A DNA stretch of 40,917 nucleotides from Gammaproteobacteria bacterium (lineage in GTDB: Bacteria > Pseudomonadota > Gammaproteobacteria > GRL18): positions 1 through 40,917 of the forward strand of contig JALUZF010000044.1 in the NCBI GenBank assembly GCA_027012135.1, given 5' to 3'. This document shows, piece after piece, positions 1,560-7,979 of this stretch. Under the pieces are notes generated by a model, which searched no databases, was not told the origin of the DNA, and worked only from the letters and a program-made list of their open reading frames with translations. Each line of letters begins with the position of its first letter. Position 1 is the stretch's first letter. The translations under genes and the position numbers were made by a program.

Positions 1560-1732
1560 CCTGGGCAGGACTCAGTCTGATTGCTGAACTTTTCTACAAT
1601 GGGCCTGATTAAAGCGTCTTTTCTGGCGGAATAAAGATTCACTTCTCCCTCGGCCATAGCAATACTATTGGTGTTTAAAATTGGGATAAAAGATGGAAAT
1701 AATGGGCAATAAACAGTATTATAGGCATTCAA
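1560..1732 (-). pseudogene. Broken iron(III) ABC transporter substrate-binding protein, N-terminal fragment
   Basis: The minus-strand frame contains AMAEGEVNLYSARKDALI followed by RPIVEKFSNQT. This resembles the start of the mature FbpA/FutA-type ferric-binding proteins, which read EVN(L/V)YSARK...LI.P...F...TG right after the signal-peptide cleavage site. The preceding residues are hydrophobic but irregular, a degraded signal peptide. After SNQT the resemblance ends abruptly and the frame continues about 36 unrelated residues to a stop at 1460. The rest of the roughly 330-residue protein is missing. Its start region overlaps, in antisense, the promoter of the glycine riboswitch. Identification is from memory of the family motif. 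Confidence 0.5.
1694..1722 (+). promoter_or_regulatory. Candidate sigma70 promoter for the glycine operon
   Basis: TGGAAA at 1694-1699 and TATTAT at 1717-1722 are spaced by 17 bases. A start about 7 bases later falls near 1729, ten bases before the P1 stem of the first glycine aptamer, which is the geometry expected for a riboswitch leader. Confidence 0.5.
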
Positions 1733-1738
1733 TGCCGA

Positions 1739-2198
1739 TTTGTACGGGAGAGAGTCGCTGTTTTTCTCATTTATTTATTCAATTACTTTTTTAATTGAAT
1801 AGCAGAAACAGAGACCACCGAAGGCGCAACACACCCGGAAACGCTCAGGTTTCAGAACTGTACAAATTCAGGAACTATCCGCAGAAGCCGCTTAATGCCG
1901 CTGCAAACCTGCCGATAGCCTCATTGACTCTGGAGAGAGATTGTTAAACCTAAAAAACTCGGTTGAATCGTAGCGAGAATGATCAGAGTGCTGGAGATAC
2001 AAGGATTTACAGGTTATTTTGGCTTTATTCGTACCCCAAGGGCACTTCCTTCGGGGCGTAGCCTTACTACGGGTGAAGTCAAAATGTTCTGGAAAGCCTT
2101 GTAGATTCAGTGCTATGGACATTCGGAGTAGGTTCAACTGAGTTTTTTAGGTTAAAATCCACCGAAGGGGCTAAAGCTCTCAGGTAGTTGGACAGAGG
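1739..2198 (+). promoter_or_regulatory. Tandem glycine riboswitch (two aptamers, second with giant P2 arm)
   Basis: Aptamer 1 spans 1739-1866. P1 is TTTGTAC/GTACAAA, followed by the conserved GGAGAG (1747-1752), a P2 arm (GTCGCTGTTT with AAACAGAGAC) that contains an extra 9-bp hairpin (1777-1785/1792-1800), then CACCGAAGG (1816-1824) and GCTCAGG. Aptamer 2 spans about 1926-2198. P1 is CTCTG/CAGAG, with GGAGAG (1932-1937), CACCGAAGG (about 2159-2167), CTCTCAGG and GGACAGAGGGG. Both halves match the gcvT glycine riboswitch consensus. In aptamer 2 the P2 arm is an imperfect hairpin of about 220 nt (1939-2159). The switch precedes lipA and the gcv genes, which fits glycine-induced expression. Glycine binding is inferred from the consensus. 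Confidence 0.9.
1939..2159 (+). repeat. Long imperfect inverted repeat inside aptamer 2
   Basis: The 5' arm 1939-1967 and the 3' arm 2133-2159 pair over about 27 positions, including CCTAAAAAACTC with GAGTTTTTTAGG, interrupted only by single-base bulges and one wobble. Inside, a second palindromic block (1987-2012 with 2089-2114) has ends containing GGATTTACAGG and CTGGAAA...ATTCAGTGC. These resemble the ends of the element at 12208-12352. The whole block looks like a palindromic mobile or repeat element lodged in, or grown from, the variable P2 loop. Confidence 0.75.
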
Positions 2199-2201
2199 GG
2201 T

Positions 2202-2265
2202 GAAAATAATTCTGCCGTATCCGTTTGCCGTGCTCCGGCCTGTCAAACGAATTGCAGTTATTTTC
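2202..2265 (+). promoter_or_regulatory. Hairpin between riboswitch and lipA (possible expression platform)
   Basis: GAAAATAA (2202-2209) pairs with TTATTTTC (2258-2265), and CGTTTG (2222-2227) pairs with CAAACG (2244-2249) inside. There is no T-run directly after the 3' arm, so it is not a classical terminator. It ends about 40 bases before the lipA start (ribosome site GGGTAAG), and could act on translation or processing. Confidence 0.45.
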
Positions 2266-2304: not shown

Positions 2305-3345
2305 ATGACTATCGATTCAGCAGAATCACAGCAGAAACTGCAAAAAAGCAGTATACAAAACCCTACACAGGAACCCGCACAGCCGGCTTCCTCTGTCAGT
2401 GAGCCGGATCAGACCGCATCCATGACCCGTGCCAGACGATTTATCCCCGTTTTTGATCATTCAGACAAACCCAATGGCAGTCGTATGCCGACCTATATCC
2501 GTCAGGCTCTGACGGAAAAAACTCATTTTGCTTCCACTGCAGCCAGTATCCACGGTAATAAACTGGTTACCGTCTGCGAAGAAGCTCATTGCCCCAACCG
2601 TAATGAATGCTGGAACCGCGGTACTGCGACTTTTATGTTATTGGGTGATACCTGTACCCGGGCCTGCGGTTTCTGTGCCGTTAAAACCGGTCGGCCCGGA
2701 ACTGTGGATACGACTGAACCGGCCCGTATTGCTCAGGCCGTGCGGGAAATGGGGCTGGACTTTATTGTCCTGACTTCTGTTAACCGGGATGAACTGCCCG
2801 ATGGCGGAGCGCAGATTTTTGCAGACACCTACCGTGCTCTGCGTCATGACAAACCTGATATCGGCGTGGAGTTTCTAACGCCGGACTTTAGAGATTGTCA
2901 GGAACCGGCAGTGGAAATAATTCAAACAGCAATGGGAGATTCACCCTATACCGGCACACCGGAAATGCAGCTGATCTGGGGGCATAATATAGAAACCGTG
3001 CCTTCTTTATATAAGGAAGTGCGCAAGGGCAGTAAATACCAGCGCTCGCTTGATATGCTGCGTCTTGCGGGTGGACTGGACAAGGTAGAAACCAAGTCAT
3101 CCATTATCCTGGGTCTGGGTGAAAGCCGTGATGAAGTCTATGAGGTTATGCAGGATCTGCGGGCGAATAATGTTTCCCGTATTGCCCTGGGACAGTATTT
3201 AAGACCGACCAAATTTCACCTGCCGGTTAAGGAATACCTGTCCCTGGAACTGTTTGCCGAATATGAAGAACTGGCTAAAGGGCTGGGCTTTACCTGGGTA
3301 AAATCCGGCCCCATGGTGCGTTCTTCCTATCACGCAGAAGATTAG
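2305..3345 (+). CDS. lipA: Lipoyl synthase
   Basis: Radical SAM enzyme that inserts two sulfur atoms into protein-bound octanoyl groups to form lipoyl cofactors, as required by GcvH. Both iron-sulfur sites are visible. The auxiliary cluster is Cys91-x4-Cys96-x5-Cys102 (CEEAHCPNRNEC), and the radical SAM cluster is Cys117-x3-Cys121-x2-Cys124. The C-terminal RSSY signature, whose Ser ligates the auxiliary cluster, is at 339-342. The protein has 346 residues, with a polar, Gln/Ser/Pro-rich N-terminal extension of about 45 residues. There is also an insertion of about 11 residues around 206-225 (between AVEII and HNIETV) compared with my memory of the E. coli enzyme. It is the first gene after the glycine riboswitch and lies 107 bases upstream of gcvT. 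No lipB or lplA is present in the window. Confidence 0.95.
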   Translation: MTIDSAESQQKLQKSSIQNPTQEPAQPASSVSEPDQTASMTRARRFIPVFDHSDKPNGSRMPTYIRQALTEKTHFASTAASIHGNKLVTVCEEAHCPNRNECWNRGTATFMLLGDTCTRACGFCAVKTGRPGTVDTTEPARIAQAVREMGLDFIVLTSVNRDELPDGGAQIFADTYRALRHDKPDIGVEFLTPDFRDCQEPAVEIIQTAMGDSPYTGTPEMQLIWGHNIETVPSLYKEVRKGSKYQRSLDMLRLAGGLDKVETKSSIILGLGESRDEVYEVMQDLRANNVSRIALGQYLRPTKFHLPVKEYLSLELFAEYEELAKGLGFTWVKSGPMVRSSYHAED

Positions 3346-3360
3346 CCTTTATCCTGCTAT

Positions 3361-3400
3361 TCCCTCTTCTTTTGGGAGCGGGCCAGGGTGAGGGCAGGTG
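3361..3400 (+). repeat. REP-like short palindromic repeat, copy A
   Basis: The pattern is CCCTC...TTTGGGAG followed by GGGTGAGGGCAGG. It belongs to the same short palindromic family as 12435-12470 and 39602-39643, all in the same orientation. It sits between lipA and gcvT and could form a small hairpin in the operon mRNA. Confidence 0.55.
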
Positions 3401-3452
3401 ATAAATAAAAAAATAAACAAGCAATCAAACAAGCAAAACAAAAAGGTTCTAT

Positions 3453-4568
3453 ATGACCCAGACAGAATTAAAAACGACACCACTGTTTAATGCCCACCAG
3501 AAAATGGGCGCCAAACTGGTGGATTTTGGCGGCTGGAATATGCCTGTACATTATGGTTCCCAGATTGAGGAGCATCACCAGGTGCGTAAAGATGCCGGTA
3601 TGTTTGATGTCTGTCATATGACTATTGTTGATTTGCGCGGTAGTGATGTCATAGCCTATCTGTCCCGCCTGCTGGCTAATGACGTGGCAAAGATTGCCGG
3701 CAAGCCCGGCAAGGCTCTCTACAGCTGCATGCTCAATAATGAGGGTGGAGTCATAGACGATTTAATTATTTATGCCATGGCACCGGACTGGGTACGTGTG
3801 ATCGTTAACTCAGCCACCCGGGAAAACGATCTGGCCTGGATGCGCAGCCAGCTGGGTGATAATGCGGTGGAACTGACCGAACGGGATGACCTGGCTATGA
3901 TTGCCGTGCAGGGACCTAATGCCAGAGTGCTGGCAGGCAAGGCGCTGGGTGATGACATTGCCGGAGCAGAAGAATTAAAACCCTTTAATGCCATACTGAT
4001 AAACCAGGGTGCTGATAATGAACGGTTTGTAGCCCGTACCGGTTATACCGGTGAAGACGGCTATGAAATTGTCTGTGCTAACGAACAGGCTGAGTCGGTA
4101 TGGAATGGTCTGTATGAAGCTGGTGTCAGGCCTTGCGGATTAGGTGCGCGTGACACACTGCGCCTGGAAGCGGGTATGAATCTTTACGGCAGTGATATGG
4201 ATGAAACTACTTCACCCCTGGAAAGCGGCTTAAGCTGGACGGTGGATTTCAGTGATCCCGAGCGACATTTTATTGGCCGTGAAGCACTGGAAAAACAGAA
4301 AAATAACGGTATAAAATATAAATTTGTGGGCCTGATTTTAAACGGCAAGGGTGTTTTACGTGCCCATCAGAAAGTCATTGTTGAAGGAGAGGGCGAAGGT
4401 GAACTGACCAGCGGTACATTTTCTCCCACCATGCAGAAAGCCATTGGTTTTGCCAGAGTGCCGGTCGGCGCCGCAGAACATTGTCAGGTAGAAATTCGTA
4501 ATAAATTACTGGATGCGAAAATAGTTAAACTGCCCTTTGTAAGAAATGGCAAAGTTTTGTCTGGATAA
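3453..4568 (+). CDS. gcvT: Aminomethyltransferase, T-protein of the glycine cleavage system
   Basis: 371 residues, the usual length. GcvT takes the aminomethyl group carried on the lipoyl arm of GcvH, transfers the one-carbon unit to tetrahydrofolate and releases ammonia. The N-terminus has the family pattern TPLFNAHQKMGAKLVDFGGW, followed by HHQVRKDAGMFDVCHM. The segment RTGYTGEDGYEIV and the GLGARDTLRLEAGMNLYG motif of the folate-binding half are intact, as is the C-terminal beta-barrel part. AAGG just before the ATG serves as ribosome site. It is part of the riboswitch-led operon. A 112-base gap to gcvH could hold an internal start or processing site; a TTGACC and a TATAGT are present there but with poor spacing. 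Confidence 0.96.
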   Translation: MTQTELKTTPLFNAHQKMGAKLVDFGGWNMPVHYGSQIEEHHQVRKDAGMFDVCHMTIVDLRGSDVIAYLSRLLANDVAKIAGKPGKALYSCMLNNEGGVIDDLIIYAMAPDWVRVIVNSATRENDLAWMRSQLGDNAVELTERDDLAMIAVQGPNARVLAGKALGDDIAGAEELKPFNAILINQGADNERFVARTGYTGEDGYEIVCANEQAESVWNGLYEAGVRPCGLGARDTLRLEAGMNLYGSDMDETTSPLESGLSWTVDFSDPERHFIGREALEKQKNNGIKYKFVGLILNGKGVLRAHQKVIVEGEGEGELTSGTFSPTMQKAIGFARVPVGAAEHCQVEIRNKLLDAKIVKLPFVRNGKVLSG

Positions 4569-4680
4569 ATGTCTTATTCAGTGCGTTTGACCGTGTCTGG
4601 CTACAGGTGCTCTATAGTAGTAAAACTTTATTTTTAGATAAGAAAAACAAGTAAGAACATAAGTAAAAAGGTGAATAAAA

Positions 4681-5076
4681 ATGAGCGATATACCTCAGGA
4701 ATTAAAATATACCAAATCACATGAATGGGTGCGTGTTGAAGAAGACGGTACTTTAACCGTAGGTATTACCGAACATGCTCAGGGGCTGTTAGGTGATATG
4801 GTTTTTGTAGAACTGCCGGAAGTGGGTGAGTCTTATGAAGCCGAACAGGATTGTGCTGTTGTGGAATCAGTCAAAGCCGCTTCTGATATTTATTGCCCCG
4901 TTGAAGGTGAAGTGATTGAAGTCAACGAAGAACTGGAAGATGCACCGGAACAGATTAATGTTAATGCCTACCATGAAGGCTGGATTTTCCGGATTAATCC
5001 CTCCAATCCGGATGATGTGGACAACCTGATGAATGCCGATGATTATGCTGCACTAGTTGAAGCAGAAGAACACTAA
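4681..5076 (+). CDS. gcvH: Glycine cleavage system H protein
   Basis: Lipoyl carrier that shuttles the aminomethyl intermediate between the P, T and L proteins. The 131-residue sequence is close to the family norm. The lipoylated lysine is Lys65 in [10 protein letters not shown], inside the conserved biotinyl-lipoyl fold. The start [11 protein letters not shown] and the closing [17 protein letters not shown] are typical. The ribosome site AAAGGTG lies a few bases before the ATG. Its modification depends on LipA, encoded two genes upstream in the same operon. The L protein (dihydrolipoamide dehydrogenase) is not in the window, as is usual because it is shared with other complexes. Confidence 0.97.
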
Positions 5077-5100
5077 ACACCCTGAAGCCGAGATATAAAT

Positions 5101-6486
5101 ATGCCCTATATACCCCATACTTCCCAGGAAATAGCCGAAATGTTATCGGTTATCGGTGTGGACTCAATTGAACAGTTATTTGATGAAATCCCTCCTGAAT
5201 TACGCAGTGACGGTCTGGACAATATTCCGTCCCGACAATCAGAAATGCAGGTTCAGCGTCTGCTGACAGAAAAATCCATGCAGGACGGCACGCCGCTGTG
5301 TTTTGCCGGTGGTGGAGCCTATGAGCATCATATACCTGCGGCTATCTGGGAAATTGCTACCCGGGGTGAATTTTATTCGGCTTATACGCCGTATCAGGCA
5401 GAGGCTAGCCAGGGTACTCTGCAGGTTATTTACGAGTTTCAGACCATGATAGCCAGTCTTACCGGTATGGATGTATCCAATGCATCATTGTATGACGGGG
5501 CGTCAGCTCTTGGTGAAGCGGTATTAATGTCGGTACGGGCTAACCGTAAGGCAAAATCAAAACGCATTATAATGCCGGCTACGGTTTCCTCTGTTTACCG
5601 TCAGGTAGTGGCAACTATTGTTAAACATCAGGGCATTACTCTGGATATTATTGATTTTGACAGGGCTAACGGTACGATTGATATCGATAAACTTAAACAG
5701 CAGAGTGAACCTTTTGCGGCACTGGTGATTCCGCAGCCTAATTATTTTGGCTGCATGGAAGATGTGCACACCCTGACGGACTGGGCTCATGAGCAGGGTG
5801 CCATGGTGATTGGCCTGGTTAACCCTGTTGCACTGGCCTTACTGGAAGCGCCCGGTAACTGGGGCACTCAGGGAGTGGATATTGCCGTAGGTGAAGCGCA
5901 GCCTCTGGGTATTCCGCTGTCATCCGGCGGTCCCTATATCGGTTTTATGGCCTGTAAACAGAAACTGGTGCGCCAGTTACCGGGACGGATTGTGGGACGT
6001 ACGGTTGATCTGGACGGTAAACCCGGTTTCAGTCTCACCCTTCAGGCCCGCGAACAGCATATCCGCCGTTCCAAGGCTACTTCCAATATCTGTACCAACC
6101 AGGGCTTAATGGCTACAGCCACAACCCTGTACCTGGCCTTTATGGGACGGGATGGGCTGCAGAAAGTGGCAGCATCCTGCGTGCAGAATACTCAGGCGCT
6201 AATTGATTTATTAAAAATCAGTCCGGGCATCTGCTTTCCTTTCGGAACATCCGTGTTTCATGAATTTGTCATCACCCTGCCGACCGATGTAGAGCAGGTA
6301 ATAGAGGCCATGGCAGAAGAAGATATTGTGGCAGGGATTAATATCTCTCAATATTATGCACAGGACGGTCTGGAAAATGCCCTGCTGATCTGTGTGACAG
6401 AAACCAGAAGTCCGGAGGATATGGCCTTTTTTGCTGACACTTTGAATAAAGTCATCAGTGATCTGACAGGAGGGGCACGCAAATGA
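5101..6486 (+). CDS. gcvPA: Glycine dehydrogenase (decarboxylating) subunit 1
   Basis: N-terminal-half subunit of the split P protein, which decarboxylates glycine with pyridoxal phosphate and passes the aminomethyl group to GcvH. It has 461 residues, usual for the two-subunit form. The start [20 protein letters not shown] is diagnostic for GcvPA, as are [32 protein letters not shown] and the late [18 protein letters not shown]. This half lacks the catalytic lysine, which is on GcvPB. The stop overlaps the start of gcvPB by four bases (ATGA), giving coupled 1:1 translation for the expected heterotetramer. Confidence 0.96.
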
Positions 6487-7979
6487 CCCAGTTAAATGAA
6501 ACGGTTATTGAAAACAGGCTGATCTTTGAAGCCTCAGACTTTACCCGTAAAAGTAGCTCACTGGCACCGGATATTGATGTTGATATGGTAACAAAAAGTT
6601 TACCGGAACATTTGCTGCGCAAAAGCGAGCTGCTACTGCCTCAGGTTGGTGAATTACAGGTTGTACGCCACTATACCTGCCTGTCACAGAAAAATTTTTC
6701 TATTGATACCCATTTTTACCCGCTGGGTTCCTGTACAATGAAGTACAATCCCAGGATCTGTAATACTCTGGCCCAGTTACCCGGCTTTGCAGGGCGCCAT
6801 CCAATGGCGCACAGCAGTATGAGCCAGGGTATTATGAGCTGTCTGTATGAACTGCAGAATATGCTTATGGAAGCCACCGGTATGAAACAGGTCTCCCTGA
6901 CACCCATGGCCGGAGCCCAGGGTGAATTTACCGGGGTAGCCATGATCCGGGCCTACCATGATCATAATAAGGACGATGCCCGTACTGAAATTATTGTGCC
7001 CGATGCGGCACATGGTACCAATCCGGCCACGGCTGTGATGTGCGGTTATAAGGTAAAAGAACTGCCCACCAATGATCAGGGTGATGTGGATATTGATGCC
7101 CTGAAAGTCATGATCGGCCCGCAAACCGCCGGTATTATGCTGACCAACCCGTCGACTCTTGGGGTATTTGAGCGCAAAATTAAACAGATTGCCGATATGA
7201 TCCACGAAGTCGGCGGTCTGCTTTATTATGACGGTGCTAACCTTAACGCCATTCTGGGCAAGGTCAAACCTGGTGATATGGGCTTTGATGTGATCCATAT
7301 GAATCTGCATAAAACCTTTTCTACGCCTCACGGCGGCGGCGGACCCGGTGCCGGACCAGTCGGTGTAAGTGAGCGCTTACAACCTTTCCTTCCGGTGCCA
7401 ATGGTGGCATTGAAAGACGGTCAGTACTACTGGCTTAGCGAAGATGAACTGCCGCTCAGTATTGGACACCTGTCAGCCTGGATGGGTAATGCCGGTATTC
7501 TGCTACGGGCTTATATTTATGCCCTGCTGCTGGGAAGGGAAGGTATGCAGCGGGTGGCAGAATTTGCGACCCTGAATGCCAATTACCTGCTGCAGCGTTT
7601 TGCGGATGCCGGCTTTGAAATAGCCTTTCCTGAACGCCGGGCCAGCCATGAATTTATTCTGACGCTGAGAAAAGAAGCCAAGCAATACGGCACCAATGCC
7701 ATGGATTTTGCCAAGCGCCTGCTGGATTACGGCTTTCATGCACCGACTACCTATTTCCCATTACTGGTACCTGAATGTTTCCTGATAGAACCCACAGAAA
7801 CGGAAGCCAAAACCGATCTGGACAGTTTTGTAAAAGCCATGGAACTCATTCTGGAAGAAGCCAGAGAATCCCCTGAAGTACTAAAACAGGCACCTTACAG
7901 TCTTCCAGTCAGACGTCTGGATGATGTTAAAGCCGCCAGGGAACTGGATCTGAACTATTATCAGAGCCATGCCGAATAA
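6483..7979 (+). CDS. gcvPB: Glycine dehydrogenase (decarboxylating) subunit 2
   Basis: Catalytic half of the split P protein, 498 residues. The pyridoxal-phosphate lysine is Lys277 in the motif [34 protein letters not shown] near residue 78 and AHGTNPATA near 176 are also intact. With GcvPA it forms the glycine decarboxylase. The two-gene arrangement differs from the single 950-residue GcvP of E. coli and is common in other bacteria, including several gammaproteobacterial groups. The start overlaps the gcvPA stop; dgkA follows after 18 bases, so it is probably co-transcribed. Confidence 0.97.

Follow-up and report, generated by a model that had tools for sequence, protein, structure and literature searches.

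Self-folding inserts are tolerated at the tips of peripheral helices in other structured RNAs, namely as hairpin intervening sequences in 23S rRNA helices and as repeats in cyanobacterial RNase P RNA. Among riboswitch leaders, the nearest published case that we found is the pneumococcal trp locus, where a BOX element lies between two T-box riboswitches upstream of the genes and the switches were reported to be still functional (PMC3049150). A review of bacterial MITEs merely speculates that such elements might form riboswitches or terminators (PMC10969869). Structures of glycine riboswitches have demonstrated that P1 and P3 are conserved while P2 and P4 are variable, and that the P2 arm is poorly resolved and mobile (PMC12060979).

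The window analyzed here is a stretch of 40,917 nucleotides (contig G000:C44) from a gammaproteobacterial MAG, referred to here as G000, which is a draft of 325 contigs; the other G numbers denote further genomes. It contains a tandem glycine riboswitch (RF00504) upstream of the glycine metabolism genes lipA-gcvT-gcvH-gcvPA-gcvPB (2305-7979), and the features of this leader are collected in Table 1. The GTATTAT block of the promoter-like site is conserved in relatives. In G000, G002, G003, and G005, the glycine switch is followed by lipA and then gcvT, an order that would tie GcvH cofactor supply to glycine. Outside the leader, positions 632-701 near the contig start match domain V/VI of a group II intron (48.4 bits); no reverse transcriptase ORF is listed upstream of this match, and the intron has probably either degenerated or been truncated where the contig ends. 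Furthermore, a PIN-domain protein (PF13470; 715-1386, minus strand) is preceded by a small ORF that looks antitoxin-like by eye, and the two are likely a toxin-antitoxin pair.

Table 1. Coordinates of the riboswitch leader, the inserted element, and the downstream genes in the window.
Feature	Position	Strand	Remarks
Promoter-like site, -10 TATTAT at 1717-1722	1694..1722	+	Ahead of the riboswitch; consensus match only
Glycine aptamer 1	1735..1870	+	RF00504, 51.0 bits
Expanded P2 of aptamer 1, AT-rich hairpin of ~60 nt	1753..1812	+	Found in G002 too; G003 has a shorter one
True 5' half of aptamer 2, CTCATTGACTCTGGAGAGAGATTG	1920..1943	+	Identical in G002; in G003 identical up to the P2 base
5' parts of aptamer 2	P1 5' strand CUCUG 1928-1932; GGAGAG 1932-1937; P2 base GAUU 1939-1942	+	
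Left target-site duplication TTAAA	1944..1948	+	
Palindromic MITE of 203 bp, CCTAAA...TTTAGG, the distal P2 hairpin	1949..2151	+	
Right target-site duplication TTAAA	2152..2156	+	Perfect 5-bp match to the left one
3' half of aptamer 2: P2 3' strand, CACCGAAGG, P3 (2161-2185), P1 3' strand CAGAG (2193-2197)	2157..2205	+	
Putative expression platform: UGGACAG (2189-2195) can pair with UUGUCCA (2271-2277), competing with P1	2189..2277	+	Predicted fold
lipA (lipoyl synthase), heading the controlled cluster	2305..3345	+	TIGR00510, 326 bits
gcvT (3453-4568), gcvH (4681-5076), gcvPA (5101-6486), gcvPB (6483-7979)	block 3453..7979	+	

The original prediction held that P2 of aptamer 2 is stretched into a long imperfect hairpin carrying a foreign palindromic block, and our data bear out both parts. 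The span from GGAGAG to CCGAAGG is 230 nt in this aptamer versus 13-72 nt in all other aptamers surveyed in relatives, and the two aptamer halves lie more than 200 nt apart. Over 24 nt, the two arms of the hairpin (1944-1967 and 2133-2156) show 92% complementarity, and the region 1925-2200 is predicted to fold at -117.1 kcal/mol compared to a mean of -73.9 kcal/mol for shuffled sequences (z = -9.8). The block itself is a copy of a short, non-coding, multi-copy element with terminal inverted repeats and arms CCTAAAAAACTCGGTTGAA and TTCAACTGAGTTTTTTAGG. With positions 1940-2160 as the query, the same genome contains approximately 27 matching places of at least 150 bp along with many shorter ones, and matches were found in 22 of the 57 genomes searched, nearly all of the same family. 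Many copies elsewhere are 80-95% identical and have the same ends and 5-bp duplications; the boundary (CCTAAA...TTTAGG) is sharp across copies, whose main lengths are 203 and 176 bp. We found a perfect 5-bp duplication in 56 of 79 copies, while re-dealing the right ends gave a mean of 10.5 and a maximum of 21 in 2000 trials. Since shorter derivatives (37-118 bp) occur elsewhere, several of them with retained duplications, internal deletion of the palindrome is common. The window copy departs from its subfamily consensus at two pairs of positions, the partners of each pair lying in opposite arms (alignment columns 7/199 and 10/196, 0-based), so that the stem remains complementary. Selection on the hairpin could account for these changes, but so could a variant source copy or repair of the palindrome.

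Several transposase-bearing elements point to the parent of this MITE. In G001, a transposase of the PF13701/IS1380 type is bounded by CCTAGTTTAATCAGTTAAA and GTTAACTGATTTTTTTAGG. The transposase at locus L122 passes Pfam PF13701 (45.1 versus 34.7), and one end of its element is identical over 18 bp to an arm of the MITE copy L015. Two elements related to the one in G001, found in genomes G013 and G007, have matching ends and perfect 5-bp duplications: L213 begins with CCTAAATTAATCACTTAAC and is flanked on both sides by TTAAT, and L214 is flanked by TTTAA. The transposase at L212 in G018 is intact (522 residues) and has NF033539 (IS1380) as its best NCBIfam match (1.5e-35; 122.7 versus a cut-off of 180); since this score is below the curated cut-off, we refer to the parent as IS1380-like. 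A search for PF01609 transposases returned other IS families, mostly without matching ends. We take IS1380-like autonomous elements, which have matching ends and the same duplication length, as the parent of this MITE.

We compared the same position in relatives, where a short P2 arm had been proposed as a check, and such an arm is indeed found in G001, G003, and G005 (span 26-29 nt) as well as in further family members. The exact pre-insertion sequence was not seen among these short-P2 relatives. In G002, the site reads GATTG-TTAAA-CCTAATGAGTTTTTTAGG-TTAAA-ATCC, i.e., both ends of the element with the middle deleted; this remnant of 18 bp has the same duplications as G000, and the resulting P2 span of 45 nt lies inside the 13-72 nt range. 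The arm variants CCTAAAAAACTC and GAGTTTTTTAGG occur, among the fetched loci, at the riboswitch locus of G000 and G002 only. Because the duplications and these private arm variants are common to both genomes, we conclude that a single insertion preceded the split of G000 and G002. In the gcvT tree, G003 falls outside G000 and G002 with a support of 0.89, while the lipA tree does not resolve the order; G004 and G007 have no lipA match and are outside the lipA comparison. The P2 loop of G003, GATTTTAAGGTTAAATC (L080:1626-1655), holds GGTTAAA, the letters of the right end of the MITE plus the duplication, and this loop could be the old state, a footprint of excision or deletion, or chance.

These data bear on three other explanations for the long arm. 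That the riboswitch itself expanded, ancestrally or within one lineage, with no mobile DNA involved, would fit the observations that P2 arms do drift in length and that P2 of aptamer 1 is also expanded in G000 and G002, but the multi-copy element and its target duplications refute this idea, the short P2 of the outgroups also speaks against it, and we assign it a negligible probability. The expansion in aptamer 1 has no convincing second copy and is unrelated to the MITE; since it is not a repeat, it was enlarged by some different process. Joining of two contig pieces through the repeated element during metagenome assembly might be suspected in such a fragmented draft, but the sequence on either side of the insert is collinear with this riboswitch in relatives, the two copies of the target duplication match perfectly, and only the G002 remnant at this position shares the arm variants. 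Matching junctions in two separate genomes exclude such a chimera in practice, and we regard it as extremely improbable. We also considered whether the element targets RNA hairpins or terminators, which would make the riboswitch insertion site-directed. Two copies, L178 and L025, lie between inverted flanks whose complementarity is in the top 0.5% of control positions (i.e., hairpin tips); yet over all 72 sites compared, the complementarity of the flanks does not exceed that at control positions (mean rank 0.63, KS p = 0.92), and targeting of this kind is very improbable. Targets of the element look AT-rich (TTTAA/TTAAA/ATAAT-like), no further copy was found inside an Rfam RNA among approximately 80 loci scanned, and the insertion into the riboswitch is best read as a chance event that survived. 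At one other locus (L014:27-423), a MITE copy of 176 bp with the duplication TTGAA separates a cobalamin riboswitch (49.7 bits) from a ribonucleotide reductase gene and sits just ahead of the start codon of that gene; this is a second riboswitch leader invaded by the same MITE.

Both aptamers were predicted to keep their conserved core elements, and this agrees with the RF00504 score of aptamer 1 and with the sequence, alignments, and predicted pairing of aptamer 2, in which GGAGAG, CACCGAAGG, CUCAGG, and the P1 and P3 pairing are all present. The proposed covariance search was less clear-cut for aptamer 2: the match (2079-2205) scores 33.0 bits, above the gathering threshold of 32, but it is misaligned, its 5' half (UUCUGGAAAG) being drawn from inside the insert. 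Aptamer 2 scores 51.7 bits in G002, where the insert is cut to 18 nt and the core is identical, and 55.6 bits in G003. Because the shortened G002 aptamer with an identical core scores this well, the weak score reflects insert length and not decay of the core. The aptamer-1 core of G002 (L079:431-565; 38.3 bits) has several changes (CACUGAAGG, GCAAUAC, and AAUGCUC), and aptamer 1 may be weakening in that genome.

All divergence between G000 and G002 postdates the insertion. The aptamer-2 core differs at 0 of 81 positions between these genomes versus 40 of 164 fourfold lipA sites (24%), a rate at which approximately 20 core changes would be expected. Differences elsewhere number 6/51 in the inter-aptamer linker, 11/97 in the expression platform, and 4/54 in the aptamer-1 core. 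Since the core remained unchanged while neutral sites diverged after the insertion, our data suggest that aptamer 2 kept working, as had been predicted for the aptamer around the block; this is our strongest argument, although the G002 branch may in part be younger than the deletion, so that some of this conservation could have come about after the remnant had formed. Folding predictions are in keeping with a tolerated insert, with P1 pairing at 0.84 without the element and 0.93 with it, and P3 pairing at 0.62 and 0.63, respectively. For length-matched inserts with dinucleotide-shuffled sequence, the P1 and P3 values fell to 0.46 and 0.28, and only 1 of 100 shuffles equaled the element on both. 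We reason that a self-folding insert is tolerated here because P2 is a point where size matters little.

We propose that a near-perfect palindrome, a non-autonomous transposable element with an IS1380-like parent, inserted itself into the P2 loop of aptamer 2 and in doing so duplicated the 5-bp target TTAAA. The insert is self-complementary and P2 is a variable peripheral arm, so the RNA of the insert would fold on itself and extend P2, with P1, P3, GGAGAG, CACCGAAGG, and CUCAGG left intact. G002 would later have shed most of the element by internal deletion, leaving a shorter hairpin. The platform pairing in Table 1 suggests the usual P1/anti-P1 switch, and, as judged from the conserved sequence, lipA-gcvTHP is very probably still under glycine-responsive control by this leader. 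Overall, we consider this account (i.e., a MITE in P2 that folds as an extension of P2, an intact core, and a switch that still controls its genes) to be likely.

The insert might instead have broken or weakened the switch, its hairpin terminating transcription or delaying aptamer 2, in which case the leader would be a decaying relic. The right arm contains a 10-bp stem (CUCGGUUGAA/UUCAACUGAG) followed by UUUUUU (U6), and some termination inside the insert at this tract is conceivable; 203 nt delay the second aptamer half, and G002 has lost most of the insert, perhaps because the full length is mildly harmful. We regard a broken switch as unlikely, given that the aptamer-2 core stayed unchanged while neutral sites diverged and that lipA and the gcv genes are intact. 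Moreover, the U-tract is itself paired within the full hairpin, and a terminator scan called none at the stem and U6 of the insert, which also counts against this reading. It is quite improbable that the palindrome has been kept for changing the switch, for example as a delay of aptamer 2 or a conditional terminator, such that a mobile element retuned a riboswitch. Our preferred reading remains a working switch that carries a MITE in P2.

If so, this locus is a clear natural case, as far as sequence can tell, of a transposable element that entered the fold of an RNA sensing a metabolite, and the signs that this RNA still functions are strong. Short-armed relatives, the full element, and a deletion remnant are all visible within one genus. 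It suggests a route by which the peripheral arms of riboswitches grow and change. Because its transcript folds on itself, palindromic DNA may act as a structure-neutral insert. The locus also exposes a practical pitfall: when the hit length is limited, covariance searches align such RNAs wrongly or overlook them.

The host and the guest are each of a known kind and their combination is unusual; our full-text search of the open-access literature found no description of a MITE within a riboswitch aptamer. The rRNA and RNase P RNA inserts differ from this one in their host, which here is a ligand-sensing switch. With its two aptamers, core motifs, and place upstream of gcv genes, the leader resembles the tandem glycine riboswitch (gcvT element, RF00504), whereas its aptamer-2 P2 far exceeds the usual size and is made of a mobile element, and lipA is the first gene. 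The insert is similar to bacterial MITEs (PMC10969869), which are shorter than 500 bp and have terminal inverted repeats, target duplications, AT-rich targets, stem-loop transcripts, and an IS parent; unlike the reviewed MITEs, it has CCTAAA ends and IS1380-like parents, and one copy lies in a functional RNA domain and not in spacer DNA. As in the BOX/T-box case (PMC3049150), a mobile palindromic repeat occupies a riboswitch leader, but BOX lies between two separate switches while the MITE described here lies inside one aptamer, within the fold of the binding domain.
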